Below, in pieces: positions 933-18,800 of a stretch of 64,000 nt of DNA. This DNA comes from Candidatus Bathyarchaeota archaeon (GTDB lineage Archaea; Thermoproteota; Bathyarchaeia; 40CM-2-53-6; DTGE01): positions 1 to 64,000 of the forward strand of contig JAGTRC010000008.1 in NCBI GenBank assembly GCA_018396725.1. The letters are read 5' to 3'. Within the stretch, counting starts at the first letter, position 1, and the number at the start of each line of letters is the position of its first letter. Below the pieces are notes generated by a model. That model had not been told where the DNA came from and did not search any database. It saw nothing but the letters and a program-made list of their open reading frames with translations. A program made the translations under genes and the position numbers.

Positions 933-2519
933 ATGTCTGAGGGAAAAGCTGATAGGAGGACGTGGCTTAAGACCGTCGCTGCAGCCATCGGCGGAATATT
1001 GGTTGGAGCTGCCGCTGGATACTATGGTAAACCCAAGGAGGTTCTGGAGAGGATCATCACCTCGACTGTGACAAAGACGGAGGTAAGGACGGTTGCGGGG
1101 CCTTCTCCAACGCCCTCTCCTAAACCTGAGGAGGAGATGATGAGATGGTGGAGGGAGGCTAGCAAGCCATATAGTGGGACGACGATCAAGGTTCTGGCTC
1201 AGGCATGGGAGCCGAACTTTTACCTAAGAGATGTGGTTGGGCCGAAGTTTACGGAGTTGACGGGTATAAAAATCGACTGGGAGCTAACTTCCAACGAATT
1301 GGTGATGGAGAAGGAGATCCTCGATATGGAGAGGGGCACGGGGATCTACGATGTAACATACGATGATCAAGACATGGTCGGCACATGGATTAGAAAAGGA
1401 TGGACTTATGATATAACTAAGTTCATGGAGGAGCATCCAGAGCTCGTGGATCCAGCTTTTAATCCTAGCGATATTTTCCCCCTTCCGTACTGTATGGATG
1501 CCAGAGGCCATCTGCTCTCCATCCCCGCAGAATATTATCCCAAGACCTATGTATACCGGTCGGACCTCTTCGAGGACTCGGGAGAGAAAAGTGCATTCAA
1601 GTCTAAATACGGATGGGATCTCAGACCGCCGAAATACTATGATGAAATGATCCAGATAGCCGAGTTCTTCACGAGGCCTCCCGACCTCTACGGGTCAATA
1701 GGGGCATGTGGAGCCAAAGCCCATGAAGCACTCGGATTCGACTTCTTCGAAACCTGGCTACCCTCCTGTGGGGTCACCGGTGAAGGCTTCGAAAAGGGGT
1801 ATCCCAGAGATATATTACCGGGATGGGGCATCAATACAAAGACTTGGAGCGCGTCAACCGCTAACGGTGGAATGCTGGACAGCCCTCAGGCGGTCAGGGC
1901 GATTGAAACCTTCCTGAAGCTCGGCCTCAAATATGCTCCGCCCGGAGTTAAAGGATTCATCTACGTGGAGTCCGCCGAGCAAGTAGCAGCTGGGAAGGTC
2001 GCGCAGGTAATCACCTATACTCAATTCCTCTCGACTTTCGCTAACCCTGAGGTCTCTAAGATATCAGGAAAGTTCAAAGTCTCGCTTCCGCCAGTAGACC
2101 GTGAATATTGGAACCCCAACATGCCAATAGGCTACGCCGATATAAGCGGCTATACGATACCTCACTGCTCTCCGCATCCGGAAGCTGCCTTACTATGGCA
2201 GCAGTTTGCCGTCTCCCCATTAAATGAACTTGAGAGAGCGAAAGCCATCAATACAACTGTTAGAACATCTGTGTTGATGAATCCTGCATTAGACGCAGTT
2301 GATGCCAAGTTCGGAGGAATATTTAGCCTCATCAGAGATCCAACGGCAAGGAAGTACTTCGTAGGTACCCCCACGGAGATAGGGGATTACGCACCCTTGC
2401 TCTACGAATTCTACACTACGTTAGCTAAGGCAGTATCAGGAGAACTAACTCCTCAGCAATGTGCGAAAGAGCTAGCAAAGAGGGTTGACTCCAAACTGGA
2501 GGAACTGGGTTACAGATAA
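933..2519 (+). CDS. Tat-exported extracellular solute-binding protein of ABC importer 1
   Basis: Family 1-type periplasmic binding protein, 528 aa, expected to sit outside the membrane and deliver a small carbohydrate or polyol to the two permeases encoded next. The N-terminus has a twin-arginine signal (RRTWLK at about 8-13) followed by an alanine/glycine-rich hydrophobic stretch, then a Thr/Pro/Ser-rich linker (about 45-65) typical of archaeal membrane-anchored binding proteins. The mature domain begins near TTIKVLAQAWEP. The length (over 500 aa) and the partner genes (two different ATPases, a small membrane protein, an FGGY kinase) resemble the bacterial GlpV glycerol-binding protein, so a glycerol-like polyol is a plausible ligand, but this is inference. 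The gene opens a plus-strand operon. Confidence 0.88.
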   Translation: MSEGKADRRTWLKTVAAAIGGILVGAAAGYYGKPKEVLERIITSTVTKTEVRTVAGPSPTPSPKPEEEMMRWWREASKPYSGTTIKVLAQAWEPNFYLRDVVGPKFTELTGIKIDWELTSNELVMEKEILDMERGTGIYDVTYDDQDMVGTWIRKGWTYDITKFMEEHPELVDPAFNPSDIFPLPYCMDARGHLLSIPAEYYPKTYVYRSDLFEDSGEKSAFKSKYGWDLRPPKYYDEMIQIAEFFTRPPDLYGSIGACGAKAHEALGFDFFETWLPSCGVTGEGFEKGYPRDILPGWGINTKTWSASTANGGMLDSPQAVRAIETFLKLGLKYAPPGVKGFIYVESAEQVAAGKVAQVITYTQFLSTFANPEVSKISGKFKVSLPPVDREYWNPNMPIGYADISGYTIPHCSPHPEAALLWQQFAVSPLNELERAKAINTTVRTSVLMNPALDAVDAKFGGIFSLIRDPTARKYFVGTPTEIGDYAPLLYEFYTTLAKAVSGELTPQQCAKELAKRVDSKLEELGYR

Positions 2520-2588: not shown

Positions 2589-3443
2589 ATGAGATCTATA
2601 AATCCATGGCTTATCTTCCTTCCAGCATTCATAATAGTAGGCTTCAATTCTTTCGTACCAATCCTTTACGGGGCTTATCTAACCATGCTGAGATTCTATA
2701 TGACGGGTCAAGAAATGCAATTTTTAGGGTACGGCAACTATATGCAGTTGGTTCTTGATTCCACAGTCTGGGATTCCCTCCTTAAGGGAGCAGCCTTCGT
2801 GGGTACATGCCTCGCGATAGAGCTTCCGACAGGTTTAGCCATTGCCCTCGTAATATATAAGGAGTCTCGCATAAACCGGATCCTAAGGACGATATTCTCA
2901 TCGCCCCTCCTCATACCACCCCTCACGGTGGGGGCTACTTGGCTCCTCCTTACAAGGGCTGATATAGGTCCTCTCCCATTACTTTTGAGGCTATTTGGAG
3001 TAAATTATGACATTGGATCAAACCCTTTCCAGGCATTCTTCACGGTCGTGGCAATGGATGTATGGCATTGGACCTCCTTTGTAATATTAGTCTTCGTAGC
3101 AGCGAGAGCTGCCCTCCCACCTGAACCCTATGAGTCCGCTATGGTGGATGGAGCATCCTCTTGGCACATGTTCAGATACATAACCCTTCCAGGCATGAAG
3201 TATGCGATACTCATCGTATTACTGATAAGGATGATAGATTCTCTGAAAATATTCGATGAGGTATGGGCCCTAATAGGTGAGGGGCCTTACAGGGCTACCA
3301 ACTTCATGAGCATATACATAGTCAAGACCACGCTAAGCCAACTGAACATGGGATACGGGGCCACCCTTTCACTATTCTTCCTCTACCTCATAATAATTTT
3401 GACCTTCATTACATTAAAAGTGATGACGGGCAGGAGAACCTGA
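2589..3443 (+). CDS. ABC importer 1 permease, MalF/UgpA/GlpP type
   Basis: Integral membrane permease of 284 aa with about six predicted transmembrane helices. The cytoplasmic EAA loop that contacts the ATPases is visible as ESAMVDGASSWHMFRYITLP at about 183-202, with the expected Gly after the DGA. It lies 69 bases after the binding-protein gene and 1 base before the second permease, so the three are co-transcribed. An AAGGAGCC-like purine stretch (GAGGAGCC) precedes the ATG. It forms a heterodimeric channel with the next gene product. Base composition of this and the next gene looks A/T-richer than the enzyme genes from 9 kb onward, which could indicate separate ancestry. Confidence 0.92.
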   Translation: MRSINPWLIFLPAFIIVGFNSFVPILYGAYLTMLRFYMTGQEMQFLGYGNYMQLVLDSTVWDSLLKGAAFVGTCLAIELPTGLAIALVIYKESRINRILRTIFSSPLLIPPLTVGATWLLLTRADIGPLPLLLRLFGVNYDIGSNPFQAFFTVVAMDVWHWTSFVILVFVAARAALPPEPYESAMVDGASSWHMFRYITLPGMKYAILIVLLIRMIDSLKIFDEVWALIGEGPYRATNFMSIYIVKTTLSQLNMGYGATLSLFFLYLIIILTFITLKVMTGRRT

Positions 3444-3444
3444 G

Positions 3445-4269
3445 ATGAAGAGGGATAAGATCTACTATGCAATAGGAATACTAATGGTAGCTGTCTTCCT
3501 AGTATTCACAGCCTTTCCTCTGTATTGGTTATTAATCACGTCCTTCAAGGAAAGGCTTGAGGTGATAGGGGGTATCTCCTTCTGGCCCGGAAAGTTTTTC
3601 TGGAGAAACTATTATAGACCGCTCTTCGAGGATGTTTATGCCTCCTACATTAGAAACTCCTTCATAATCTCCTCGGTCGAGATCATAATTTGTCTGCCGC
3701 CAGCCCTCCTTGCAGCCTATGCTTTCTCGAGGCTGAAGTTCAAGGCAGACAATCACTTCCTCTTCTGGTTCCTAACCAATCGCATGGCACCCCCAGTAGC
3801 CTTTCTGATACCCTATTACGCTTTGTACACTTTCTTAAAGCTGTTCGATACGCTCCAAGGCCTAATAATAATCAATAGTATAGGCAATCTCCCATTCGTG
3901 ATCTGGCTCCTCAAGGGATTCATTGATGGAATACCCAAAGACGTCGAAGAGGCTGCCTTCATAGACGGGTACACCTTCTGGCAGATGCTTAGGAGAATAC
4001 TGCTACCCATGCTAAAACCCGCCATAGTGGTCGCTGGGCTCTTCGTATTCATCTTCACCTGGAATGAGATGTTATTCGCTTCGCTTCTTACAACTTCTCC
4101 AGCCGCCATGCCCCTCACAGGCGGCCTGCTTCATTACATGTCTCAACTCTGGATGAATTGGGGTGAAATAGCCGCCCTCACACTAATTACCATGGCTCCC
4201 ATATTAGTGGGTATATTTTACCTCCAAAAGTATATAGCGAGAGCCCTAACATTTGGGGCGGTGAGGTGA
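3445..4269 (+). CDS. ABC importer 1 permease, MalG/UgpE/GlpQ type
   Basis: Second channel subunit, 274 aa, with six predicted membrane helices and an EAA loop reading EEAAFIDGYTFWQMLRRILLP. The N-terminus has the usual short cytoplasmic tail and first helix ending in FPLYWLLITSFK, a typical MalG-family feature just before the periplasmic loop. It starts 1 base after the stop of the first permease, indicating translational coupling. Partner ATPases are encoded convergently at 4459-6634. Confidence 0.92.
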   Translation: MKRDKIYYAIGILMVAVFLVFTAFPLYWLLITSFKERLEVIGGISFWPGKFFWRNYYRPLFEDVYASYIRNSFIISSVEIIICLPPALLAAYAFSRLKFKADNHFLFWFLTNRMAPPVAFLIPYYALYTFLKLFDTLQGLIIINSIGNLPFVIWLLKGFIDGIPKDVEEAAFIDGYTFWQMLRRILLPMLKPAIVVAGLFVFIFTWNEMLFASLLTTSPAAMPLTGGLLHYMSQLWMNWGEIAALTLITMAPILVGIFYLQKYIARALTFGAVR

Positions 4270-4458: not shown

Positions 4459-5532
4459 CTAGACTATTCGCTCCCCCGTCTTCTTAAAGATTCTTATCTT
4501 GTCCTTCCTAATTTTAATCCAAACAGTGTCTCCCTCAAATATTCCAGTTTCCCTAGTCTTTACTTTTATCGTCAACCCCTTCCCTTTAAGGTGTAGTAGG
4601 GTTAGAGGCCCCAACCCCTCCACCATTTCACACCTCATAGGAACCCAACCCTGCTCCTCAGGCCTGGGTTCTCTGCTAACCTCTATATGCTCAGCTCTTA
4701 CCCCAAAGTAGAATTCATCTCCATATGGCTCCAATATACTCCTCATCTCTGATATATCATAGGATAGCTCGCCCAAAAGGAGTCTCCCATTCGCCATGCT
4801 GCAATCAATTAAGTTCATCGCTGGCATGCCAATAAAGTATGCTATGAACGTATCAGCGGGTTCTTCGTAGATTTGTTCAGGGGAATCAAATTGCACTATC
4901 CTACCATCTTTCATCACGGCTATCCAGTCGGCTAGTGTCAGTGCTTCCGCTTGGTCATGGGTAACGAAAACCATTGTCTGCTTTAGGTCTTTCTGTATCT
5001 CCTTCAGCTTCGACCTAAGTATGAGCCTACTCTCCGGATCTATGTTGGAGAACGGTTCATCTAATATGAACGCGTTGGGTGTCCTAACTAGGGCCCTGCC
5101 TATGGCTACCCTCTGTTTTCCGCCGGAATCAAGTCTGCTGGGGTGCAGATTCAACTGCTCTTCAAGCTCGAGAAGCTTGGCGACTTCGACTACTTTTCTC
5201 TTTATCTCCTGTTTTGGTATCCCTCTAACCTTTAAAGGAAAAGCGAGGTTATCGTAAACGCTCATATCATAAACTACCGGGAATTGGAACACCATGGCGA
5301 CGTTTCTTTCCTGCGGAGTTTTATCCGTGACATCTTGCCCATCGAAATAGACGCGCCCCCCCGTAGGTTTAAGTAGCCCGGCGATTATCTTCATCAGCGT
5401 GGTCTTCCCGCACCCTGAGGGGCCGAGGAGGCTATTAAGCGTCTGATCCTTAAATGTTATAGTAGCCTCTTTAATCGCCTCAACATTTCCAGGGTAGACG
5501 TGCTTTATTTCTTCAAGTCTAATCTCTGCCAT
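4459..5532 (-). CDS. ABC importer 1 ATPase, GlpT-like subunit with degenerate signature motif
   Basis: Nucleotide-binding subunit. I start it at the ATG giving MAEIRLEEIKHVYPG (5530-5532), which overlaps the upstream ATPase gene by 14 bases. Walker A (GPSGCGKT, 37-44), Walker B (FILDEP, 155-160) and the switch histidine (VTHDQ, H192) are intact, as is a regulatory C-terminal OB/TOBE-like region (about 240-357). The ABC signature, normally LSGGQ, is LDSGG at 134-138 and therefore degenerate. The sequence VFQFPVVYDMSVYDNLAFPL is characteristic of GlpT-type ATPases, which also have an eroded signature. It should pair with the neighbouring GlpS-like ATPase, whose defect is the mirror image. Confidence 0.88.
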   Translation of the reverse strand: MAEIRLEEIKHVYPGNVEAIKEATITFKDQTLNSLLGPSGCGKTTLMKIIAGLLKPTGGRVYFDGQDVTDKTPQERNVAMVFQFPVVYDMSVYDNLAFPLKVRGIPKQEIKRKVVEVAKLLELEEQLNLHPSRLDSGGKQRVAIGRALVRTPNAFILDEPFSNIDPESRLILRSKLKEIQKDLKQTMVFVTHDQAEALTLADWIAVMKDGRIVQFDSPEQIYEEPADTFIAYFIGMPAMNLIDCSMANGRLLLGELSYDISEMRSILEPYGDEFYFGVRAEHIEVSREPRPEEQGWVPMRCEMVEGLGPLTLLHLKGKGLTIKVKTRETGIFEGDTVWIKIRKDKIRIFKKTGERIV

Positions 5533-6634
5533 ACTGCCCGCCCCTAACATACTTCGTAATGAACTCCTCCTTACTCTTATTGAAGATATAGATGTCACTT
5601 AAGTGTACTGCTAGCTCGACATGTTCGCCGGGATCTAACCTTTTCACGTATGGATAATAGGTGATGAGCCTTTGTCCCTTCCAGTCCAGGTGTATTATTG
5701 ATTCTGAACCTTCGATCTCCGTAACGATGACGGTTGCACTGAAATAGAGGTCGTCTTCGTTCAAAGACTCGGGGAAGAAGAAGCTGTCCGGCCTTATGCC
5801 CAGCAAATATTCCCTCTCGGTTAGGACGTCTCCGAAATGAGAGACATCTATACGCATCCCAGAAAACTCCAAAAAGCGCCTACTATCGGATTCCTTAAGC
5901 TCCGCCTCTAGTAAGTTCATCGGCGGCCTAGCGAGTATCTTTCCTACCATTGTCGTTCGTGGGCAGCTATACACTTCTTGGATTCCCCCCGTCTGGAGAA
6001 TCCTGCCCCTATGTATTATTATTACGTATTGCGCCATAGCAAATGTATCGAGAGGATCTGAAGCTGCGAATAAAATGGTGCCTCCCTTCTCCTGGAATAT
6101 TCTCCTCAGTTCACTCCTCATCCCCTCTCTTATTTTATAATCCAAGTTCGTTAGAGGCTCGTCGAGCAGGTAAATATCCGCATCCCTTATCAACGCTCTC
6201 GCTATCGCAACCCTTTGTCTCTCCCCTCCGCTTAGCTCGGCGGGCATCCTCCTGAGAAGATCCTTTATCCGTAGAAGCTCTGCCACCTCTATGACTCTCT
6301 TCTCTATGTCTCTGCTATTCAGCTTCCTTATTTTGAGGGGTGAGGCTATGTTCTCGTAGACGTTTAAATGGGGATAGAGGGCGAAGCTCTGATATACCAT
6401 TGCCACGTTCCTTTCCCTAGCTGGAACCTTGGTAACCTCCCTATCATCGAAAAAAACTGAGCCCTTGTCGGGCGTCTCCACTCCCGCGATTATTCTGAGC
6501 AGTGTAGTCTTCCCAGAACCCACGGGGCCAAGAATAGAAGTGAAGGTTTTATCCCTGACCTCGAACGATACATCTTCTAATATCTTTTTGTCATCTATGA
6601 TCTTAGAAACGTTCTCGACTTTTACTGTGGCCAT
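5519..6634 (-). CDS. ABC importer 1 ATPase, GlpS-like subunit lacking the switch histidine
   Basis: Nucleotide-binding subunit of 371 aa. Walker A GPVGSGKT (36-43), Q-loop YQSF (81-84), a canonical signature LSGGE (134-138) and Walker B YLLDEP (155-160) are present. The switch (H-loop) histidine, normally in VTHD, is missing: the segment reads LFAASDPLD, with S192 in the histidine position. A TOBE-like C-terminal half follows (about 250-365). LTNLDYKIREGMRSELRRIF is the GlpS-type D-loop neighbourhood. A TATA-like element (tttattaaa, about 6662-6670, minus strand) lies about 30 bases upstream, so it can be transcribed separately from the FGGY kinase gene. Confidence 0.88.
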   Translation of the reverse strand: MATVKVENVSKIIDDKKILEDVSFEVRDKTFTSILGPVGSGKTTLLRIIAGVETPDKGSVFFDDREVTKVPARERNVAMVYQSFALYPHLNVYENIASPLKIRKLNSRDIEKRVIEVAELLRIKDLLRRMPAELSGGERQRVAIARALIRDADIYLLDEPLTNLDYKIREGMRSELRRIFQEKGGTILFAASDPLDTFAMAQYVIIIHRGRILQTGGIQEVYSCPRTTMVGKILARPPMNLLEAELKESDSRRFLEFSGMRIDVSHFGDVLTEREYLLGIRPDSFFFPESLNEDDLYFSATVIVTEIEGSESIIHLDWKGQRLITYYPYVKRLDPGEHVELAVHLSDIYIFNKSKEEFITKYVRGGQYGRD

Positions 6635-6725: not shown

Positions 6726-8276
6726 TTAAGAGTTAGATGCCCCTAAACTCGAGAATTCTTTATAAAATTCCTCAAGACTCTCTCTAATTTTCTTGTAAAG
6801 CGAGTAGTATCTATTATATATATTGATGTTTTTGATATTGGGTCTAACTATTTGGGCTTCCTTAACCCAGTTGTATATATCCTCATATTTAAGGAGGCCA
6901 GTACCTACCCCCGCTAGAAGCGCGTCCCCAAGCGGTGCACCCGGGGCATCCTTCATATAGGTGAACTCCATCCCGGTCACATCAGCAATTATCTGGCGCC
7001 AGAGGGGAGATTTAGCACACCCATTTACCAGTAAAGCTTTTTTAACGGGTATTCCCGCCTCTTTCGCCGCCTCGATGCTGTCGCGTATAGCATATGCTAT
7101 ACTCTCCAGGAAGGCTCTGAAGATGTGGGCTGAGTGGTGATATAAAGTAAGGCCAAAGAGGCAGCTCCGTAGATGTGGATTCCAGTAAGGTGCTCTTTCA
7201 CCGACCGTCATATGCGGAGTGAATATCAAACCTTCAGCTCCTGGAGGGATCTTCTCCGCCATACTATCCAGTATTACATATGCTGATGTACCTGTTCTCT
7301 CAGCCACGCATTTCTCCTGGGGAGCAAATTCATCTCTGAACCATCTAACAGCTGCACCTGCCGTAATTATTCCAGCGAAGGAATATAACTTATGGTCATC
7401 GTACGCTACGTATGGAAAGTTAACGAGCTTTTTTGAGAGGCGGGGTTCATCTTGGATGAATCCATTGCACATGGAGGTCCCGAGCATAGATGCGAGATCT
7501 CCATCATTCAGGGCTGTAACACTAAGCGCAGATACTGTGGCATCTATTCCCCCGGCGACCACCGGGGTTCCTCTCTTCAGGCCAGTTGCCCTTGAACCCT
7601 CTTCACCTATCTCCCCTACAACATCCTTGGACATATTTATATTTTCAGGGAAGAAGTCCCGGGGTATCCCGAGTTCTTCCATGAGGTCTTCTGCCCAGCC
7701 GCGTTTATAGATGTCATAGATACCTCCTATGACGCCCGCACTCGAATGATCAATACACGACTTTCCAGTCAGTTTATAAATTATATAACCATAGGCGGTC
7801 ATTAACTGATGGATCTTCTCCCATATCCTTAGTTCATGTCTCTTTATCCAGAGAATCTTGGTGATACCAAAGTAAGGATCCACAATATTACCGGTTCTCT
7901 TGAATATATAATCTTCTCCTATCTCTTTCCTGATAAACTCAGTCTCCTCGTTAGCCCTTCTATCCATCCATATTATACCCGGCCTTAACGGCTTAAACTC
8001 CGAATCAACGGGCACCCCCGAACCTGTATAAAGACCACTTACTGAGACCCCACTTACATCTTTCGGGTCCACATTAGCCTTTTCCAAAGCTTTCCGCACG
8101 CTCTCCAAATAGGCTCGCCACCACACGTCCGGCCACTGTTCAGCCCAGCCAGGCCTGGGAATTAATATATCGGTTTCCACGAAAGAATCCGACAAGACCT
8201 TCCCGGCAACATCGATTATACAGCTCTTAGTCCCGAAAGTTCCAATATCTGTACCGAGCAGTAGAGGAGCAACCAT
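6726..8276 (-). CDS. FGGY-family carbohydrate kinase (xylulokinase-like) 1
   Basis: ATP-dependent sugar or polyol kinase, 516 aa, of the FGGY family (xylulose, glycerol, erythritol, ribulose and fuculose kinases). The N-terminal phosphate-binding loop GTDIGTFGTKSCIID is at about 8-22, the catalytic Asp lies in VVAGGIDATVSAL at about 250, and the second-domain signature FLESIAYAIRDSIEAA is clear. The substrate is not predictable; proximity to a GlpSTPQV-like importer favours a polyol or ketose entering through it. A TATA-like element (aaaaatttatta, about 8302-8313 on the minus strand) lies about 30 bases before the ATG. Confidence 0.9.
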   Translation of the reverse strand: MVAPLLLGTDIGTFGTKSCIIDVAGKVLSDSFVETDILIPRPGWAEQWPDVWWRAYLESVRKALEKANVDPKDVSGVSVSGLYTGSGVPVDSEFKPLRPGIIWMDRRANEETEFIRKEIGEDYIFKRTGNIVDPYFGITKILWIKRHELRIWEKIHQLMTAYGYIIYKLTGKSCIDHSSAGVIGGIYDIYKRGWAEDLMEELGIPRDFFPENINMSKDVVGEIGEEGSRATGLKRGTPVVAGGIDATVSALSVTALNDGDLASMLGTSMCNGFIQDEPRLSKKLVNFPYVAYDDHKLYSFAGIITAGAAVRWFRDEFAPQEKCVAERTGTSAYVILDSMAEKIPPGAEGLIFTPHMTVGERAPYWNPHLRSCLFGLTLYHHSAHIFRAFLESIAYAIRDSIEAAKEAGIPVKKALLVNGCAKSPLWRQIIADVTGMEFTYMKDAPGAPLGDALLAGVGTGLLKYEDIYNWVKEAQIVRPNIKNINIYNRYYSLYKKIRESLEEFYKEFSSLGASNS

Positions 8277-8437: not shown

Positions 8438-8469
8438 CGCGTTATCACATGGAGCGATAACGCGTTTTT
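8438..8469. repeat. Perfect 9-bp inverted repeat with flanking T5
   Basis: CGCGTTATC (8438-8446) and GATAACGCG (8456-8464) form a perfect 9-bp stem with a 9-base loop, abutting the stop codon of the aldolase gene; five T follow on the plus strand. On the minus strand this hairpin is the first thing after the aldolase stop, so it probably marks the 3' end of the E1/E2/aldolase mRNA, stabilising or terminating it. Confidence 0.6.
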
Positions 8470-9139
8470 AATCCCCTTTTCTCTGGCCTTTGGCCAATCT
8501 GAGGCGGTATTTCTCGCTCTCCAAGCCCATTATCTTCCTGACCTCGGCGTCGGGGAGCCTCTTCGGGCCGCCCAGGAGCTTGGCTACAAGGGTTATCTTG
8601 GCGAAGTCTTCCAGGAGCTCAGCCCTCTGGTAGGCCTGCTCCAGGTTCGAACCCACGGTTATTATCCCATGGTTTTCGAGGAGCAGGGCCTCCACGCCCC
8701 TTATGTTCTCAGCTATCTTCTCGGCCAATTCCCTGGTGGTAGGGGTCTCGTAGCCCACGAACCTTATCTCCCCTATCATGGCGATGACTTCAGGGAAGAC
8801 CGCGTAATCTATTGGTGATCCAGCGCAGGCGAACCCCGTGGATACCGGCGGGTGCGCGTGGACTACGGCGTTCACGTCGCTCCGAACCCTATATATGCTC
8901 AGGTGGAATAAGAGCTCAGAAGTGGGCTTTAAGGCTCCCCCAAGGGTCTTCCCTGAGAAGTCGACTTTAACTATATCTTCAGGCTTCAGGTATCCCTTGC
9001 ACAGCCCGCTCGGGGTTATCAGGACCACGCCCTCATCCCGTATGGCGGCGCTCACGTTCCCGCCCGCGCCCGCCACCAAGCCCCTGAGGTAGAGGCGCTT
9101 AGAGATCTCCACTATTTTATCCCTTAATTCAGCCTCCAC
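8468..9139 (-). CDS. Class II aldolase/adducin family protein (L-fuculose-phosphate aldolase type)
   Basis: Zinc-dependent aldolase-fold protein of 223 aa. The family cleaves ketose-1-phosphates (fuculose, ribulose, rhamnulose) to dihydroxyacetone phosphate and an aldehyde, though members also act as epimerases and decarboxylases. Metal ligands are visible as VVHAHPP (about residues 88-94) and a later histidine in LLLENHGIITVG (about 150-155); the glycine-rich start AGAGGNVSAAI and LITPSGLCKG form the phosphate-binding region. It is the last gene of an operon with E1 and E2 and begins 3 bases after the E2 stop. That coupling suggests its product or substrate is linked to a 2-oxoacid. Confidence 0.88.
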   Translation of the reverse strand: MEAELRDKIVEISKRLYLRGLVAGAGGNVSAAIRDEGVVLITPSGLCKGYLKPEDIVKVDFSGKTLGGALKPTSELLFHLSIYRVRSDVNAVVHAHPPVSTGFACAGSPIDYAVFPEVIAMIGEIRFVGYETPTTRELAEKIAENIRGVEALLLENHGIITVGSNLEQAYQRAELLEDFAKITLVAKLLGGPKRLPDAEVRKIMGLESEKYRLRLAKGQRKGD

Positions 9140-9142
9140 CCC

Positions 9143-10306
9143 TTATTCCACCCTTAGGGGTTCTTTTCCTTCCAGTATCTCCTTAACTCTCTGGAGGAAC
9201 ATGGCCGCCGGGGCTCCATCCACGATCCTGTGGTCGAAGGAGAGGCATAGGTGCATGATGGGCTTCACGGCAATCCCTCCTCCATCCACCACTGGTTTTT
9301 CGGTGATCCGGCCTATTCCGAGTATCGCGCATTCAGGCGGGTTTATCAGGGGTGTGAAGGCATCCACGCCGAACATTCCCAGGTTGGTCACCGTGAATGT
9401 TCCTCCGCTCACATCATCCTTGGATAAGAGGTTCCTCCTAGCCTTATCTGCTAGGGTGGCGACCTCCTCCGCTATCTCGACTATGGACTTATTGTAGGCG
9501 TCCTTCACCACCGGGACCACGAGGCCCTGCTCTGTGGCGACGGCCACCCCTATGTTAATGTCCTCGAAGATCTCGATCCTATCTTCCTTAAGGGTGGAGT
9601 TAATTATGGGGTTATCCTTTAAGGCCTTCGCAACCGCCTTTATGATTATATGGGTTATGGAAACCTTCACCCCCTCCAGGGACTCGTAGTACCTCTGCAG
9701 CGTGTGGAGGCCGCTGGCGTTCACCTCGACTATAAGGGTTATCCTGGGTATCTTGGAACTCAGCGTCATGCGTTCAGCCACCGTCTTCCTAACCCCTGCT
9801 AGGGGTAGAACCTCCTTAACCCTCCTCTCCCCAGCCTTGACGGCGGCCCTTTCCCCCACTAGCCTGAGGACGTCCTCCTTCAGTATCCTACCCCCCGGCC
9901 CCGTACCCTTAACTGTCTCTAGGCTGATCCCATGGATCCGGGCGAGCTTCTTGGCTAGGGGTGAAGCCATTATCCTCGTGGCAGCTTTCGCTTTAGTGGG
10001 CTCCGGCGCAGTCGGAGGCTTCAGGGGTCCAACCTCCTCCCCCACCTCTATCTGAGGGGGCTCCTCTCCTTCCTCGCCTATGAAGGCTATGATCTCCCCC
10101 ACGGGGACGTTGGAGTTCTCACCTCTAAAGATCTTCAGGATCCTCCCGGAGGCGGGTGCCTCTAGATCGTAGGTCAACTTCTCCCCGATTATTTGGGCTA
10201 TGGGCTCCCCCTCCTCTACTGGTTCACCCTCCCCCTTATACCATTTGGCGATTGTGCCCTCCTCCATGGTCTCCGTGAACTTGGGCATGACTATTTTAGA
10301 GCCCAT
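9143..10306 (-). CDS. Dihydrolipoamide acyltransferase (E2) of a 2-oxoacid dehydrogenase complex
   Basis: E2 core enzyme, 387 aa, which carries acyl groups on a swinging lipoyl arm and transfers them to CoA. One N-terminal lipoyl domain (about 1-80) has its lysine in IIGEKLTYDLEAPASG. A Pro/Ala linker follows, then a peripheral-subunit-binding domain (ASPLAKKLARIHGISLETVKGTGPGGRILKEDV without its last residues, about 110-145) and the catalytic CoA-transferase domain with the His-Asp motif DHRIVDG near residue 355. It follows the fused E1 gene by 75 bases. No dihydrolipoamide dehydrogenase (E3) or lipoate ligase gene lies in the window, so those must be encoded elsewhere. Confidence 0.93.
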   Translation of the reverse strand: MGSKIVMPKFTETMEEGTIAKWYKGEGEPVEEGEPIAQIIGEKLTYDLEAPASGRILKIFRGENSNVPVGEIIAFIGEEGEEPPQIEVGEEVGPLKPPTAPEPTKAKAATRIMASPLAKKLARIHGISLETVKGTGPGGRILKEDVLRLVGERAAVKAGERRVKEVLPLAGVRKTVAERMTLSSKIPRITLIVEVNASGLHTLQRYYESLEGVKVSITHIIIKAVAKALKDNPIINSTLKEDRIEIFEDINIGVAVATEQGLVVPVVKDAYNKSIVEIAEEVATLADKARRNLLSKDDVSGGTFTVTNLGMFGVDAFTPLINPPECAILGIGRITEKPVVDGGGIAVKPIMHLCLSFDHRIVDGAPAAMFLQRVKEILEGKEPLRVE

Positions 10307-10381: not shown

Positions 10382-12394
10382 CTACGTTATCTCCTTCACG
10401 GCTTTTATTATTTTCTCCTCGTCTGGTATGACGAATCTCTCCAGGGGAGGCGTCGCCGGGATCGGTAGGTCGAGGGCTGAGACCCTCCTTATAGGGGCGT
10501 CCAAGTAGTCCATGGCCTCCTCCGCTATGGTGGCCGCCACCTCGGCTCCCCAGCCGTTGGTTCTATTGTCCTCCTCCACTATGACCAGCCTCCCCGTCTT
10601 CTTTAGGGATTCCAGCAAAGTATCTTTATCGAATGGTATGAGGGTCCTGGGATCTATCACCTCGGCCTCTATGCCTTCTCTCGAGAGCCGCTCTGCGGCC
10701 GCCAGGGACTTATAAACCATGAGGAGCTTACATATTATCGTGACGTCTCCCCCTTCCCTCCGGATCCTGGCTTTGCCGAAGGGTATGAGGTAGTCCCCTT
10801 CGGGGACTGGGCCGGTGACCTGTATGGCCGCCTTCTCCGACCGATACCCCTTGCTCCCATAGAGGAGTTTATGCTCGAAGAATATTACTGGGCCATCCTC
10901 CGACCTTATAGCGGTCTTCAATAGGCCTTTAGCGTCGTATGGTGTGGATGGGGCCGCGACCTTGAGCTCCGGGACGTGGAGGAAGAAGGCCTCGGGGCTC
11001 TGGGCGTGTTGAGCTCCTCTCCCAGTGGCTCCGGTGGGCACCCTTAGGACCATCGGAACCTTGACTTGGCCTCCTGACATGTATCTCAGCTTGGCGGCCT
11101 CGTTGACTATCTGGTCCATGGCGCAGAAGGCGAAGTCCCCATACTGAACCTCGGCTATAGGCTTTAATCCCATGACGGCTGCCCCCACGGCCGCCCCCAC
11201 TATGGCGGACTCCGAGACGGGCGTGTCCCTGACCCTCTCAGGGCCGAACTCATCGGATAATCCAAGTGTTACGCCGAAGGGCCCGCCGAACCCCCCCTTA
11301 ACGCCTATGTCCTCGCCTATCAGGAACACCCTCTCATCCCGCCTCATCTCCTCCCTCAAGGCTTCCCTTATGGCCTCGCCTATCGTAAGCGTCCTCTCCC
11401 TGGATTCCCCGGGCTCCTCCACATTCATGGGCGACGCCGGATAAGTATCCTCCAGGGCTACTTCGGGTCTGGGCCAAGGGCTCGCCTCCGCGAACTCTAC
11501 AGCCCTCCTTATCTCATCCTCAACCTCGCTCTCCATTTGTTCGGCCTCCTCGGGCTTTAACACCCCCCATTCTATGAGCCTAGCCTTGAACCTGGGTATC
11601 GGATCCCTCTTAAGCCACTCCTCCACCTCATCCTTCGGCCTATAGGTGGCGGGGTCCCCCCTGGAGTGCCCTCCATGCCTATAGGTTAGGCATTCTATCA
11701 GGGTTGGGCCCTCTCCGTTCCTGGCCCTTTCAACCGCCTCCCCAGCCGCCTCGTAGACGGCTAGGACGTCGTTGCCGTCCACGGTCACCCCCTTTATCCC
11801 ATAGGCTGATGCCCTATCGCTGACCCTCTCGATCCTTAGGCTCTTGGAGATGTGGGTTGAGGCGGCGTAGAAGTTATTCTCGCAGACCAGTATTAAGGGG
11901 AGGTCCCAGACCGCAGCTAGGTTGACTCCTTCATGCCACATACCCTGGTTTACGGCTCCGTCGCCGAAGAAGCAGGCGGCCACCTGATCCGTGTCCCTCA
12001 TCTTGAAGGATAAGGCGACGCCGGCTCCAACAGGTACGTTGGCTCCCACTATGGCTATAGCCGGGAGCATCCCCTTGGAGAACTCCCCGACGTGCATGGA
12101 TCCTCCCTTCCCCTTGCAGCATCCCCCAACCCTGCCGTAGAGCTCGGCCATGAGCCTCTTCAGATCGCAGCCCTTAGCGATGTAGTGGCCGTGCCCCCTA
12201 TGGGTGCTCAGGATGTAATCGTTATCCCTAAGGTTGCTGCACACCCCCACGGCTACAGCCTCCTCCCCGGCGTAGAGGTGCACGGTGCCAGGTATGGCGC
12301 CCTGAAGGAAAAGCCTGTACACGGCGCTCTCGAAGCGCCTAATCCTGAGCATCCCCCGATACATCTCTATGAGTTTTTCATCTGGAAGCCTCAC
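10382..12394 (-). CDS. 2-oxoacid (pyruvate/acetoin-type) dehydrogenase E1, alpha and beta fused
   Basis: TPP-dependent decarboxylase component, 670 aa. Residues 1-320 match the alpha chain: RRFESAVYRLFLQGAIPG, STHRGHGHYIAKG and the thiamine diphosphate motif GDGAVNQG, ending in CENN. Residues about 335-670 match the beta chain: FLIGEDIGVKGGFGG, DTPVSESAIVGAAVGAA and QYGDFAFCAMDQIVNEAAKLRY. Most archaea and bacteria encode these as two proteins, so the fusion is notable. Together with E2 it would oxidatively decarboxylate a 2-oxoacid or cleave acetoin to an acyl-CoA. The substrate cannot be assigned; operon linkage to a class II aldolase suggests sugar-acid breakdown. Confidence 0.93.
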   Translation of the reverse strand: MRLPDEKLIEMYRGMLRIRRFESAVYRLFLQGAIPGTVHLYAGEEAVAVGVCSNLRDNDYILSTHRGHGHYIAKGCDLKRLMAELYGRVGGCCKGKGGSMHVGEFSKGMLPAIAIVGANVPVGAGVALSFKMRDTDQVAACFFGDGAVNQGMWHEGVNLAAVWDLPLILVCENNFYAASTHISKSLRIERVSDRASAYGIKGVTVDGNDVLAVYEAAGEAVERARNGEGPTLIECLTYRHGGHSRGDPATYRPKDEVEEWLKRDPIPRFKARLIEWGVLKPEEAEQMESEVEDEIRRAVEFAEASPWPRPEVALEDTYPASPMNVEEPGESRERTLTIGEAIREALREEMRRDERVFLIGEDIGVKGGFGGPFGVTLGLSDEFGPERVRDTPVSESAIVGAAVGAAVMGLKPIAEVQYGDFAFCAMDQIVNEAAKLRYMSGGQVKVPMVLRVPTGATGRGAQHAQSPEAFFLHVPELKVAAPSTPYDAKGLLKTAIRSEDGPVIFFEHKLLYGSKGYRSEKAAIQVTGPVPEGDYLIPFGKARIRREGGDVTIICKLLMVYKSLAAAERLSREGIEAEVIDPRTLIPFDKDTLLESLKKTGRLVIVEEDNRTNGWGAEVAATIAEEAMDYLDAPIRRVSALDLPIPATPPLERFVIPDEEKIIKAVKEIT

Positions 12395-12487: not shown

Positions 12488-12559
12488 ACCTATTAATATA
12501 GTTCTTCGGCGATAGGAATTAGACCGTGCAACCGATAAGGTTTCGCGTAGTGGTTTAGG
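12488..12559 (+). promoter_or_regulatory. Promoter region of RLP1, divergent from the E1 operon
   Basis: An A-rich BRE-like stretch and TATA element (aaacctattaatata, about 12486-12500) sit about 60 bases before the RLP1 ATG. The 165-base gap also serves the E1 gene on the other strand (a TATA-like tttatcta on the minus strand near 12438-12445), so the two operons are back to back and could be co-regulated. Confidence 0.45.
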
Positions 12560-13828
12560 ATGGAGTTTGAGGATTCCCTCTACGCCAGTTTTGAAGGGTT
12601 AGATCCCGACCGCTTCATCTTCGCCCTATATTACATTGAGACCAATGGGCTCCTCAGCAGGGCCGCCGAGGAGATAGCTGTGAGCCAGTCGACGGGCACA
12701 TGGGTCCCGTTGAAATATGAGACCGAGGAGGTTAAGAGGTATAGGGCTAGGATAGTCCGTTTGGAGAGGCATAGGGGCAGCGACAGGGAGGGCTACGCCG
12801 AGATAGCATATCCTGTGGACAATGTTAACCCCAGGGTGGGCGGCATACCCGAGCTCCTGGTAACCGTGGCGGGGTGCGCCTTCGAGCCCGCTGATTTCAC
12901 CGCTCTAAGGCTCATAGATGTCCGGGTTCCGAGGGGCTTCGCTCAGGAGTTCCCGGGCCCCCGATTTGGGATCGCGGGGTTGAGGGAGCTCATAGGGGGC
13001 GACGCCGGAGATAGGCCTCTGATCGGTACGCCCGTGAAGCCCTGCGTAGGCCTCACGCCCGACGTGGTGGCTGAGATCTGCTATGAGGCGGCCATGGGAG
13101 GCATAGACTTCATAAAGGATGACGAGTTGAACGTGAGCCCCAAGTACTGTCCCATCGAGGAGAGGGTTCCTAAGGTTATGGAGGCCCTGGACAGGGCCAA
13201 GGAGGAGACCGGTAAGAGGGTGCTCTACGCCCCCTGCATAACGACGAGGGTGGATGAGATAGTTGGGCTCGCAGAGAAGGTCGTGGAGTGGGGGGCTAAC
13301 GCGTTGTTCCTCAACGTCGTATCCACGAGCTTCTCAGCCGTCCAGGCAGTGGCGGAGGATCCCTCGGTCAGGGTTCCCATCCACGTCCATAAGGGCATAG
13401 CCGACGCCTGGACGAGGAACCCCAGCTTCGGGATAGACTTCCAAGTCCTATGCAAGCTAGCTAGGCTCTCGGGAGGGGACAGCATGCACGTAGGGGGGGT
13501 AGGCGGAGGCTATATAAGGGTGGAGCCGTACGAGATCCTGAAGAGCTGCAGGGCCCTGAGGGGTCCATACCATGGGTTCAAGCCCACCCTGCCCGGGATA
13601 GGGGGAGGAATACATCCCGGAAACCTCAAGGCCGCCATGGACCTCCTAGGCAACGACATAATATTCCTTGTAGGGGGAGGGATCCACGGCCACCCGGACG
13701 GCCCAAGGGCCGGCGTGAAGGCCCTGAGGCAGGCGATAGACGCGCATCTAGCAGGGACGCCCATAGAGGAGAAGGCGAGGCAGCACCCGGAACTGGCGAG
13801 GGCCATAGAGAGATGGGGACTACGGTGA
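12560..13828 (+). CDS. RuBisCO-like protein (RLP1) with a heavily altered active site
   Basis: RuBisCO large-subunit superfamily, 422 aa, covering both the N-terminal domain and the TIM barrel. Compared with spinach RuBisCO, these residues are kept: K175 (K160 here), carbamylated K201 with D203 and E204 (K186, D188, E189 in IKDDE), H294 (H277), H327 (H310) and the GG pair in GGGIHGHPDG. These are lost: E60 to S42, N123 to C106, K177 to C162, R295 to K278, loop-6 K334 to G317, and S379 to G348. A protein without loop-6 Lys cannot be a normal carboxylase, so it is a form-IV-like enzyme, probably an enolase, isomerase or decarboxylase acting on a phosphorylated keto sugar. It heads an operon with an ADP-dependent kinase and an aldolase-like protein. 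Confidence 0.9.
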   Translation: MEFEDSLYASFEGLDPDRFIFALYYIETNGLLSRAAEEIAVSQSTGTWVPLKYETEEVKRYRARIVRLERHRGSDREGYAEIAYPVDNVNPRVGGIPELLVTVAGCAFEPADFTALRLIDVRVPRGFAQEFPGPRFGIAGLRELIGGDAGDRPLIGTPVKPCVGLTPDVVAEICYEAAMGGIDFIKDDELNVSPKYCPIEERVPKVMEALDRAKEETGKRVLYAPCITTRVDEIVGLAEKVVEWGANALFLNVVSTSFSAVQAVAEDPSVRVPIHVHKGIADAWTRNPSFGIDFQVLCKLARLSGGDSMHVGGVGGGYIRVEPYEILKSCRALRGPYHGFKPTLPGIGGGIHPGNLKAAMDLLGNDIIFLVGGGIHGHPDGPRAGVKALRQAIDAHLAGTPIEEKARQHPELARAIERWGLR

Positions 13829-13873
13829 AGCGCCTAGACCTCCCAGCATCAACGGAGGAGCGGACGGCCATCC

Positions 13874-15337
13874 ATGGATTTAATAAACGTGATGCGTCAA
13901 GGGGGCGGCATAATGGATGAGGATTCATGGAACCTGAGATATTCTGAGGCCCTGAGCGGATTAGCGTCTAGAATCGATGCGGTGGAGGGGATCATAACCG
14001 CATATAACACTAACATTGATGCAATATACCGTGTAAGGCCATCCATCGTCGAGGATGCGGTTAAACCTTACTCCAGGGAGGTTTTGGATAAGATCAGGGA
14101 CCCTCCAAGGAGGATATTAGACGAGAAGGATCTCTTAGCGGGCTTAATCCTCTGCATGAGGGAGGGGCTGGGTGAGGAATGGCTCATATTAGATCCGAAG
14201 GTCTCCGATAGAATCTCGGAATACTTCATTCGGGATGAGCTACGGATGGGCGGGCAGGCCGGGAACATGGCCAACGCCCTGGCGAGCCTAGGCGTACCTT
14301 TAATAATACCCCATGTGGTTCAGCTCCCCGAGATGCAGGCAGACCTATTTATAGATGGGGGGCGCATCCAGGTGCCCCAGGCATCCGATGGAGAGATCGT
14401 GCTCGTCCCTGTAAGGGATGCGGTGAGGCCTGACGATGAAGCTCTAATCCACCACGTCTTCGAATTCTCAAAGGGTGGAGAATTCTTAATGGAGGGTTCA
14501 CCCATCGAGATTCCGAGGGATAACCGCTTCATAGCCACCTACGACGACTATAATACCAGGCTTATAATCGATCCCTCCTTCCGCGATGGGGTTGAGATCG
14601 CGGGGAGAGTTGACGGCGCGATCCTCGCCGGCTACCACTTCTTACGGGAGGATTGCATCGAAAGGATCGAGGCATCATTGGAGCAGATAAGGGAGTGGAG
14701 GAGGCTCAACCCTCGATTATTCATCCATTTAGAGCTGGGATGCACGCCGAACCCCAGGGTTAGGAGTGAAGTAGTAGGAAAGGTATTCCCCCTAGTGGAC
14801 AGTGTAGGATTAAACGAGCATGAACTGGTCGAGGTGATGGGTGTCCTTAAGCCATCCCATAGGATAAACCTCTGGGATTTAAGGTTGGGGGAGACAGCCC
14901 CCACGATATACGAGGCCGCCAGGATCCTATCCTGTTTAACCGCTGTCGGGAGGCTGACCGTTCACACGAAGGATTACTCCCTCAGGATAGTTAGGGGTCG
15001 CCCGGGCATCCAGCCTGAAAGGGAGCTGCACTCGCTCTTATCCGGCTCGGCCGTCGCAGCTAGCTACGCAGCCCACGGCAGGCATATGGGGCTGGATGCG
15101 GCAGCATCAGGGTTGAAGGGCATCCCCATAAGCCCTGTAGGCATAAGGGAATTCAACGATCTAGCGGAGAGCCTCCCCCTTAAAGTCAGGGAGTTCTTCA
15201 GAGCCAACGGCTACGCGAAGGTAGGGGATGTTTGGCTCATATTCTCGGTTAACAGGGACGTCGAAGATCCAGCCACCACCACGGGGTTAGGGGACTCCAT
15301 GACGGCGGCCATGGTCCTGGCTGACGCCTCGGCCTGA
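13874..15337 (+). CDS. ADP-dependent sugar kinase (ADP-phosphofructokinase/glucokinase family)
   Basis: Ribokinase-fold kinase of the archaeal ADP-dependent glucokinase/phosphofructokinase family, 487 aa, close to the family length of about 450-490. Motifs: AYNTNIDAIY near the N-terminus (substrate site), GGQAGNMANALASLGV (about 130-145), the NxxE-like metal/nucleotide motif in GLNEHEL (about 315) and the catalytic Asp in TTGLGDSM near the C-terminus. The start could also be the ATG at 13913 (MDEDSWNLRYSEALSG), which fits the family N-terminus better. It lies 45 bases after RLP1 and 68 before the aldolase-like gene, so it probably phosphorylates an intermediate of the same pathway; glucose or fructose-6-phosphate are family defaults, not proven here. 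Confidence 0.88.
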   Translation: MDLINVMRQGGGIMDEDSWNLRYSEALSGLASRIDAVEGIITAYNTNIDAIYRVRPSIVEDAVKPYSREVLDKIRDPPRRILDEKDLLAGLILCMREGLGEEWLILDPKVSDRISEYFIRDELRMGGQAGNMANALASLGVPLIIPHVVQLPEMQADLFIDGGRIQVPQASDGEIVLVPVRDAVRPDDEALIHHVFEFSKGGEFLMEGSPIEIPRDNRFIATYDDYNTRLIIDPSFRDGVEIAGRVDGAILAGYHFLREDCIERIEASLEQIREWRRLNPRLFIHLELGCTPNPRVRSEVVGKVFPLVDSVGLNEHELVEVMGVLKPSHRINLWDLRLGETAPTIYEAARILSCLTAVGRLTVHTKDYSLRIVRGRPGIQPERELHSLLSGSAVAASYAAHGRHMGLDAAASGLKGIPISPVGIREFNDLAESLPLKVREFFRANGYAKVGDVWLIFSVNRDVEDPATTTGLGDSMTAAMVLADASA

Positions 15338-15405
15338 AAGAACTGGATTTATATCCATAGAGCGGAACCTTCCATTAGAGAAACAGTTGAAGGGTTGATG
15401 GTTTA

Positions 15406-16257
15406 ATGGTAGCCTCTGATTTGACCAGACTTCTGAGGGACGCCCAGGCTGAGGGCTACGCTATCGGATACTTCGAGGTTTGGAGCCTTGAATCCACTAG
15501 GGCTCTAGTAGAGGTTGCGGAGGAGGAACGGGCTCCCTTGATAGTGGGGTTCAACGGCGGATTACTCGGGGAATGCGATGGACTAGAGTATTACGCCGCC
15601 CTGGCTAAGGCTGCCGTGGACAAGGCTAAGGTTCCAGCCGTCTCCCTCCTAAACGAGCCCATGGATCTCAGACAGGTCATGCAGGGGTTGAGGCTCGGGT
15701 TCATGGCGGTCATGGTGGACTTCTCGGGGCATCCATTCCGAGAGAACGTGGATTTAACCAGGAGGGTTGTAGAGGTCTGCCATCCCATGGGCGTGGCGGT
15801 TGAGGCCCAGCTGGATAGGATACCCTCCGCCGAAGATGGCGTGCCTCCAAGGGACTTGGAGAAATGCCTCACGGACCCCGATAGGGCTGCGAGGTTCCTG
15901 AGGGAGACGGGGGTGGACGCCCTCTCCGTCTCCGTGGGGAACGTCCACGGCCTATACAAGGGTAAGGCGAAGCTCGACTTCGAGAGGATCAGGAGGCTGA
16001 AGGGCCTCGGGGTACCCCTAGTGCTGCACGGCGGGACGGGCATATTGGATCACGACGCTGAGGAGGCCGTCAAAGCTGGCATAGCCAAGATAAACCTGGG
16101 ATACGAGCTGAGGCGTTCCTTCCTCAGCGGGGTGAGGGAAGGCCTAGAGGAGATGCCGGACGCGTACCCCGAGAAGATATTTAAACTGGGCGAAAGGGGC
16201 TTCAAAGAGGTGGTGAGGCGGAAGATGAGGATCTACGGCTGCTCTAACAGAGTGTAA
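15406..16257 (+). CDS. Class II fructose/tagatose-bisphosphate aldolase-like protein with changed catalytic residues
   Basis: TIM-barrel protein of 283 aa aligned along its length with class II FBA/KbaY/GatY aldolases. Two zinc-ligand histidines are kept (NVHGLYKG, H181; LVLHGGTG, H208), as are NVDLTRRVVE and the phosphate-binding KINLGYEL. The strand that normally reads HLDH, with the catalytic Asp and a zinc-binding His, reads SLLNEP here, so Asp becomes N83 and His becomes E84. The VEAELG motif is VEAQLD. A glutamate could still bind a metal, but loss of the proton-shuttling Asp predicts altered chemistry. A TATA-like attttatatcc-type element (about 15348-15356) may give it its own promoter. 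It is the third gene of the RLP1 operon. Confidence 0.85.
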   Translation: MVASDLTRLLRDAQAEGYAIGYFEVWSLESTRALVEVAEEERAPLIVGFNGGLLGECDGLEYYAALAKAAVDKAKVPAVSLLNEPMDLRQVMQGLRLGFMAVMVDFSGHPFRENVDLTRRVVEVCHPMGVAVEAQLDRIPSAEDGVPPRDLEKCLTDPDRAARFLRETGVDALSVSVGNVHGLYKGKAKLDFERIRRLKGLGVPLVLHGGTGILDHDAEEAVKAGIAKINLGYELRRSFLSGVREGLEEMPDAYPEKIFKLGERGFKEVVRRKMRIYGCSNRV

Positions 16258-17219: not shown

Positions 17220-18800
17220 TTGGATGAAGCCTTGCTGGGGATAGACATCGGCACAGGGGGATGCAAGGCCACTCTGATAACTCTTGAGGGAGAGATAATA
17301 TTTACAGCATCCAGGGAGTATCCCACACATTATCCCGAGCCGGGGTGGGCTGAGCAGGATCCGGGGGATTGGCTCAAGGCCCTCACCGAGATCTGCAGAG
17401 GGATGAGCGATCGAGTTAAGCGTCGTATAATCGGGATATGCATCGATGGACAACCCCATACCCCTGTATTCCTGGATGAGCGAGGGGAAGTTCTGCATCC
17501 AGCCATACCCTGGACGGACAGGAGGAGCAGCGCCCAGGTGGAGTATCTGAGGCGGCGCCTACCTGAGGTGGATGCGAAACGTACCTTCAACTCCCTTAAC
17601 ACGGCCTTTACGCTCCCCCAGCTCCTATGGGTGAAGGAGTACAAGCCTGAGGTGTGGCGGCGGACCTATAGGCTGCTTATAGCAAAGGATTATGTGAGGC
17701 AGAGGATCATCGGCGAGGGCTGGTTCACCGACCCGAGCGATGCGCTGGGGACGTACCTATTCGACGGGGAAGCCTTCGAGTGGTCCGAGGGGATATGCGC
17801 CGCGGCGGGGATAGAGGTGGAGAAGCTGCCCGAAGTCAAGCCTTCATCCCTCATCGTAGGGGAGGTCACCCGGGAGGCATCTAAAAGGTTCGATCTCCCC
17901 GAGGGCGTCCCCGTGGTGAATGGGGCCCATGACCCATCGGTGGAGAACTTGGCCGCTGGAACCGTGAAGCCCGGGGATGCCTTCGTCAAACTCGCCACAG
18001 CGGGGGTGATCTCCGTGACCACGAGGGAGCCTACGCCGGATCCGAAGGGTAGGACCGTAACCTACTGCCTCCCCACGACCAAGGATGGGAGGGCGGATGG
18101 ATGGTTCACCAAGACCGCCACCTTCTCATGCGGCTCCTCCTATAGATGGTTTAGGGACCTCTTCTGCCAGAGGGAAGTGGAAGAGGCGGAGAGATATGGG
18201 AAAACCGCCTTCCAGCTGATGGATATGCTCGCGGAGGAGGCCCCCCCATGCTCCGAAGGCTTAGTATTCCATCCATACCTGATAGGGGAGGGATCCCCGT
18301 ACTGGGATCCCCAGCTTAAAGGGAGCTTCTTCGGAGCAACCCTAAGCCATCAGCGGAGCCATTTCTGCCGCTCGATCCTCGAGGGCGTAGCGTTCTCTAT
18401 AAGGGATTCCACGTCCATATTCCAGGAATTGAACCTGAAGATCCGCGAAATCCGGCTGATCGGAGGGGGGTCCGCCAGCCGCACTTGGAGAGAGATACTC
18501 TGCAACGTATTAGGCCTAAAGGGCCTGAGAACCCTCGGCGGAGACTCCTCCTTCGGGTCAGCGATACTGGCGGGGGTCGGGTTATCCATATATAGAAGCA
18601 TCGAGGAAGGAGCGGCCCGCTGCGTAAAAATAATCGATGAGACCCATCCGGACCCTGAATTACACGTCCTATACGGCGAATTGTTCAAGATATACAAGGA
18701 ACTCCACGATGCTACGGCATCCATATCCCATAAGCTGGACGAGCTGGCGAGGAGCCTGCCTAGAAGACAGGATAAGAGATGCGTTGAATCAGGGGGATGA
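17220..18800 (+). CDS. FGGY-family carbohydrate kinase (xylulokinase-like) 2
   Basis: Second sugar kinase, 526 aa, starting at TTG (17220) shortly after a GGTGGAG ribosome-binding stretch. The phosphate-binding loop LLGIDIGTGGCKATLI opens the protein; the catalytic Asp is expected in VVNGAHDPSVENL (about 235-247), and the second domain carries ILEGVAFSIRDSTSIF and IRLIGGGSASRTW. It is only distantly similar to kinase 1 and so probably phosphorylates a different sugar. It is convergent with the 2Fe-2S/FAD operon (10-base gap) and lies about 1 kb downstream of the RLP1 operon. Confidence 0.9.
   Translation: MDEALLGIDIGTGGCKATLITLEGEIIFTASREYPTHYPEPGWAEQDPGDWLKALTEICRGMSDRVKRRIIGICIDGQPHTPVFLDERGEVLHPAIPWTDRRSSAQVEYLRRRLPEVDAKRTFNSLNTAFTLPQLLWVKEYKPEVWRRTYRLLIAKDYVRQRIIGEGWFTDPSDALGTYLFDGEAFEWSEGICAAAGIEVEKLPEVKPSSLIVGEVTREASKRFDLPEGVPVVNGAHDPSVENLAAGTVKPGDAFVKLATAGVISVTTREPTPDPKGRTVTYCLPTTKDGRADGWFTKTATFSCGSSYRWFRDLFCQREVEEAERYGKTAFQLMDMLAEEAPPCSEGLVFHPYLIGEGSPYWDPQLKGSFFGATLSHQRSHFCRSILEGVAFSIRDSTSIFQELNLKIREIRLIGGGSASRTWREILCNVLGLKGLRTLGGDSSFGSAILAGVGLSIYRSIEEGAARCVKIIDETHPDPELHVLYGELFKIYKELHDATASISHKLDELARSLPRRQDKRCVESGG

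Follow-up and report, generated by a model that had tools for sequence, protein, structure and literature searches.

The window analysed here, a stretch of 64,000 nucleotides from a Candidatus Bathyarchaeota genome (archaeal, 1.75 Mb, 98.9% complete; the window is part of its contig 8), carries at positions 12560–16257 three intact open reading frames (ORFs) on the plus strand, which encode a RuBisCO-like protein (RLP), designated RLP1, an ADP-dependent sugar kinase and a class II aldolase-family protein. Each of them scored far above the Pfam cut-off of its family (RuBisCO_large, ADP_PFK_GK and F_bP_aldolase, Table 1), and the annotated starts leave intergenic gaps of 45 and 68 bases, so ORFs and Pfam scores both confirmed the linkage of the three genes that an earlier reading of this DNA (the original prediction) had claimed. 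The first gap, however, holds for the annotated ORF and is probably 84 bases: when the kinase is aligned with that of G223 (MSENLW) and with AncMsPFK (MDISEW), the internal ATG 13913 (MDEDSW), which follows the purine-rich AAGGGGG, looks a likelier start than 13874. No intrinsic-terminator-like site was found in the trio region. The 165-bp divergent intergenic region shared by RLP1 and the gene for the E1 component of a 2-oxoacid dehydrogenase complex holds an AT-rich element, CTATTAATATAG, that might serve as an archaeal promoter element. Because the archaeal genes for aIF2-alpha, Nop5/56, Gins51, STT3 and a TCP-1/cpn60-family chaperonin lie on the same contig, the contig is taken as archaeal, and an artefact or bacterial contamination is unlikely.

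Active-site residues of the three proteins

RLP1 retained the RuBisCO residues K175, K201, D203, E204, H294 and H327 (spinach numbering, as for K334), with the carbamate/Mg2+ site present as K186, D188 and E189 (equivalent to K201, D203 and E204) and the base as K160 (equivalent to K175). Six further active-site positions were substituted (E60S, N123C, K177C, R295K, K334G and S379G), corresponding to S42, C106, C162, K278, G317 and G348 of RLP1 itself; the predicted absence of the loop-6 Lys (spinach K334) was seen together with five other replacements. In RuBisCO, E60 pairs with K334, and K334 handles CO2. Among 150 aligned RuBisCO/RLP rows, 148 were scorable and two were gapped at one site; acidic residue 60 and Lys 334 were both kept in 145 rows, both were lost in three (RLP1, MtnW and a Faecalicatena RLP), and loss of one alone occurred in none of the 148. 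Since the two residues are kept or lost jointly across the homologues and both are gone in RLP1, CO2 chemistry appears unlikely for this protein, and a CO2-independent reaction of the enolate type is the fairly likely alternative. The AlphaFold model (predicted local distance difference test score, pLDDT, 91; predicted template-modelling score, pTM, 0.90) was closest to form III RuBisCO and RLP structures, with a template-modelling score of ∼0.89 against RuBisCO structures, and the fold is confidently predicted to be intact.

Lying outside the clades of forms I and III and bearing the six substitutions, RLP1 is, judged from its sequence, a member of form IV, the broad RuBisCO-like group. Maximum-likelihood trees, built without form II and IV-Photo rows, placed it as a lone deep form IV branch separated from the RuBisCOs with support of 98/98. 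Among the form IV functions reported (as cited in PMC6302742) are the enolase activity of MtnW and those of the RLPs in apionate breakdown. MtnW, the 2,3-diketo-5-methylthiopentyl-1-phosphate enolase, is CO2-independent and non-carboxylating and resembles RLP1 in having lost E60, K177 and the loop-6 Lys while keeping K175, K201, D203, E204 and H294; it differs at residue 123, with Lys where RLP1 has Cys. An identity with MtnW was rejected: a clade of RLP1 with MtnW, tested with one MtnW sequence, gave an approximately unbiased test p value (p_AU) of 0.0007, in line with the separation from methionine-salvage enolases on which the original prediction depended, and the model scores fell below the cut-offs (268.9 versus 409 and 231.3 versus 513.6 bits). 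No mtn-type methionine-salvage neighbour beside RLP1 exceeded a cut-off.

Like RLP1, the OiaX and OiaX-like proteins of D-apionate catabolism are form IV RLPs, and their substrate is a phosphorylated sugar derivative supplied by a sugar kinase encoded nearby, as is proposed for RLP1. The OiaX-like clade was not sister to RLP1 in the tree; of the large clades, it is the nearest one from which RLP1 could not be separated (p_AU 0.237). OiaX differs in that it is partnered by a kinase from the DUF1537/OiaK family and that the loop-6 Lys and an acidic residue 60 are kept, the latter as Asp in both OiaX-annotated sequences examined. By the NCBIfam equivalog model, RLP1 was rejected as OiaX (262.9 bits versus a cut-off of 700).

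For the kinase, residues were mapped onto an ancestral ADP-dependent phosphofructokinase with fructose 6-phosphate, and the residue roles were taken from the same work (PMC7948494). The catalytic equivalents were all kept (N32, N34, D36, E90, GGQ, R206, E282, E313, H360 and D471), while K179, N181 and R212, which contact the phosphate or mark phosphofructokinases, were represented by L191, H193 and D224, an ADP-glucokinase pattern; H193 matches the His at the same site of the Thermococcus litoralis glucokinase (PMC7948494). With catalytic residues intact and specificity residues of the glucokinase type, the enzyme probably phosphorylates a free sugar and hence acts first. The predicted kinase-first order thus received support, and the ADP-dependent phosphofructo/glucokinase label stood as to family, to which the glucokinase-like specificity adds a point that had gone unmentioned. 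The agreement with the ADP-dependent glucokinases of T. litoralis and Pyrococcus covers both catalytic and sugar-specificity residues (E90 and the L, H, D pattern); the kinase differs from them in its operon partners, in an identity of at most 37% to any relative found, and in scoring below NCBIfam cut-offs, the best match being ADP-glucokinase at 283.4 bits versus an equivalog cut-off of 387. Neither a ROK-family sugar kinase nor a second ADP-dependent kinase was found in this genome.

The third protein resembles the class II fructose/tagatose-bisphosphate aldolases (FBA/TBP aldolases) of the GatY/KbaY type in its full-length family match, in two metal-binding His (H181 and H208) and in the LHGGTGI phosphate loop, but it lacks the combination of a catalytic Asp with three metal His that characterizes those enzymes. 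Its LDHG motif has become LNEP (D82N and H83E), so that N83 stands for the catalytic Asp and E84 for the first metal His, as had been predicted; in addition, VEAELG has become VEAQLD, with Q135 in place of its Glu, and NIDTDLR has become NLGYELR. Three other aldolases of the family in this genome hold the Asp-His pair and the ELG motif, and the operon copy alone is altered. The residue checks of RLP1 and of this FBA-like protein accordingly agree with the claim that both TIM-barrel enzymes are changed at key residues. Two further clusters on other contigs of the same genome (L223:5551-8484 and L225:5002-8601) combine a class II FBA-family gene with an apparent FGGY kinase, and by these this archaeon seems to possess several sugar or polyol routes.

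A candidate kinase-enolase-lyase module

These residues, together with the confidently predicted fold of RLP1, support a short catabolic module, running from kinase to isomerase/enolase to lyase, for a sugar imported from outside. The ADP-dependent kinase would phosphorylate the free, unphosphorylated sugar; RLP1, by means of its Mg2+/carbamate site and Lys175, would then turn the sugar phosphate into a metal-bound enediolate and re-protonate this at another position as an isomerase/tautomerase, with CO2 neither added nor lost because the E60-K334 pair that handles it in RuBisCO is gone. In the last and weakest step, the product of RLP1 might undergo aldol cleavage of a modified kind, or else an enediolate reaction related to it, at the FBA-family protein, whose site has Glu/His/His for His/His/His and Asn for the catalytic Asp. 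We favour this module as a whole tentatively, at somewhat less than an even chance, and the modified lyase reaction taken by itself is doubtful. It is rather unlikely that the trio amounts to a route of sugar degradation not known before in archaea, where a RuBisCO relative from a separate lineage, working independently of CO2, and an aldolase-family enzyme whose metal site has been rebuilt successively process what the ADP-dependent kinase makes, both by reactions as yet undescribed for their families. Such a kinase-isomerase-aldolase logic in a three-gene cluster has been proven in 5-deoxyribose salvage (PMC6079011), where the DrdK-DrdI-DrdA disposal operon likewise ends in a metal-dependent aldolase; all three of its enzymes come from other protein families, and the trio is not a member of that system.

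The tight same-strand arrangement free of any terminator-like site that could be found, and the sugar ABC transporter, FGGY kinases and aldolase/dehydrogenase genes flanking the trio, speak for the module, as does the adjacency of uncharacterised RLPs elsewhere to FGGY (L039, L041, L012 and L142) or OiaK-like (L045) kinases. Several points weigh against it. Recurrence of the gene order in other archaeal genomes had been set beforehand as a test, and the order was not found elsewhere, either in 257 genomes of the class and a 398-genome sample of the phylum, searched with RLP1, kinase and FBA-like protein separately, or among the matches listed for GTDB contigs, searched with RLP1, where a distant copy could have escaped. 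The pathway is thus read from a single genome and has no conservation signal behind it. MtnW and the Faecalicatena RLP share one clade, so that the E60/K334 losses in the three proteins may in part go back to a common event; the FBA-like protein, lacking the catalytic Asp, may not cleave C–C bonds at all, and its structure prediction (from a single sequence, pLDDT 57) was too unreliable to be of use. Within the class, the best relatives of RLP1 had 50% identity, retained E60, N123, R295 and K334 and had no such neighbours, and the best matches found for the kinase and the aldolase had 37% and 42% identity, respectively. Plasmids held only distant relatives of each of the three proteins, and viral contigs, searched with the kinase and the FBA-like protein only, held none.

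The same lack of conservation would be expected if the kinase were merely this organism's ADP-dependent glucokinase, and the genes on either side of it (RLP1 and FBA-like) were either unrelated neighbours or coded for proteins that drift or have a non-catalytic role; this explanation also gains from the kinase being the sole dedicated hexokinase candidate found in the genome. All three ORFs are nevertheless intact and separated by short gaps. In RLP1 the metal ligands and K175 are all kept and the changes cluster where CO2 and substrate are faced, and two metal His remain in the FBA-like protein; such a pattern points to alteration and not to random change, and the explanation is unlikely. The original prediction had instead pointed to bacterial D-apionate breakdown, whereby the kinase would make a 3-oxo-sugar-acid phosphate that RLP1 decarboxylates or trans-carboxylates as OiaC/OiaX do. 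The grouping of RLP1 with the OiaX-like clade, which was not rejected, and one other archaeal RLP in the class (L045) adjoining an OiaK-like kinase would suit this route, but RLP1 lacks E60 and the loop-6 Lys where OiaX-annotated sequences have Asp and Lys, its OiaX score is far below the cut-off, and the kinase, which does not belong to the OiaK type, has a pocket resembling one for a neutral hexose rather than for a sugar acid; apionate-type decarboxylation received no support, and we consider the route improbable. A role in AMP disposal, with the kinase yielding AMP and RLP1 serving as a second enzyme handling ribulose-1,5-bisphosphate or ribose-1,5-bisphosphate (R15P) beside the nucleoside monophosphate phosphorylase/R15P isomerase pathway, draws on the presence in the same window of AMP phosphorylase, R15P isomerase and the more RuBisCO-like RLP2. 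It is very improbable, given that RLP2, a relative of which adjoins R15P isomerase, already fills the RuBisCO place of the pathway, that 28 kb separate RLP1 from the genes of the pathway and it is devoid of the carboxylation residues, and that no FBA-like step is required there.

Few RLPs have known reactions, and what parts CO2 chemistry from pure enolisation is an open question in the superfamily. RLP1 offers an independent lineage lacking the E60-K334 pair, and since the likely substrate class of its partner kinase, a free sugar, can be read from the sequence, its reaction is experimentally approachable from the kinase product onward.

Gene neighbourhood and other RLP loci

The region 933–21787 reads as a sugar-use island, comprising the ABC transporter, two FGGY kinases, a class II aldolase, 2-oxoacid dehydrogenase E1/E2, fumarate-reductase-like subunits and an IolN/creatininase-like hydrolase. 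The fused E1, then E2, then the class II aldolase form a run divergent from the RLP1 operon.

Table 1. Positions of the trio and of other features in the window
Feature	Position	Strand	Remarks
ABC sugar-type transporter, solute-binding protein	933-2519	+	
ABC sugar-type transporter, permeases	2589-4269	+	
ABC sugar-type transporter, two ATPases	4459-6634	-	
FGGY carbohydrate kinase	6726-8276	-	
Aldolase_II (fuculose-phosphate aldolase/Ru1P aldolase superfamily)	8468-9139	-	
E2 dihydrolipoyl acyltransferase	9143-10306	-	
E1 of 2-oxoacid dehydrogenase complex, alpha/beta fused	10382-12394	-	670 aa; divergent from RLP1 operon
TATA-like AT-rich element CTATTAATATAG	12490-12501	+	70 nt upstream of RLP1 ATG; spotted by inspection
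RLP1	12560-13828	+	422 aa; RuBisCO_large (PF00016) 225.9 bits, PF02788 47.3 bits
ADP-dependent sugar kinase	13874-15337	+	487 aa; ADP_PFK_GK 227.3 bits; start more likely 13913
Class II FBA/TBP-family protein	15406-16257	+	283 aa; F_bP_aldolase (PF01116) 245.7 bits
FGGY carbohydrate kinase	17220-18800	+	Best match xylulokinase model, 374 versus cut-off 380 bits
AMP phosphorylase	42377-43921	-	Archaeal pentose bisphosphate pathway
R15P isomerase	43941-44939	-	Paired with AMP phosphorylase
RLP2, second RuBisCO-family protein	62565-63941	+	Main RuBisCO residues present except K177N

RLP2 has an orthologue of 76% identity in G027, and the relative that adjoins R15P isomerase (L186) carries K177D; RLP2 is probably the RuBisCO of the AMP pathway with an unusual substitution. 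FGGY kinases directly adjoin other, uncharacterised RLPs at four loci (L039:7829-10748, L041:9333-12215, L012:1-2781 and L142:6412-9302), hosted by several archaeal genomes and a Tissierellia bacterium, and a sugar-kinase partner of RLPs is a recurring theme in these archaea and bacteria. At the archaeal locus L045:8116-11543, a divergent RLP and a racemase-like protein accompany an OiaK-like kinase (391 bits versus a cut-off of 700), possibly as an apionate-type module of archaea. In a Sulfolobales metagenome-assembled genome and in Faecalicatena (L084:2758-9326 and L099:3055-8074), RLP genes have UPF0261-like genes and phosphoenolpyruvate hydrolase-like genes (PF09370) in their vicinity, and a UPF0261-like gene adjoins an RLP in G027 (L037:7965-10718), an association that crosses domains, with the families in the Sulfolobales genome and G027 assigned mostly by eye.

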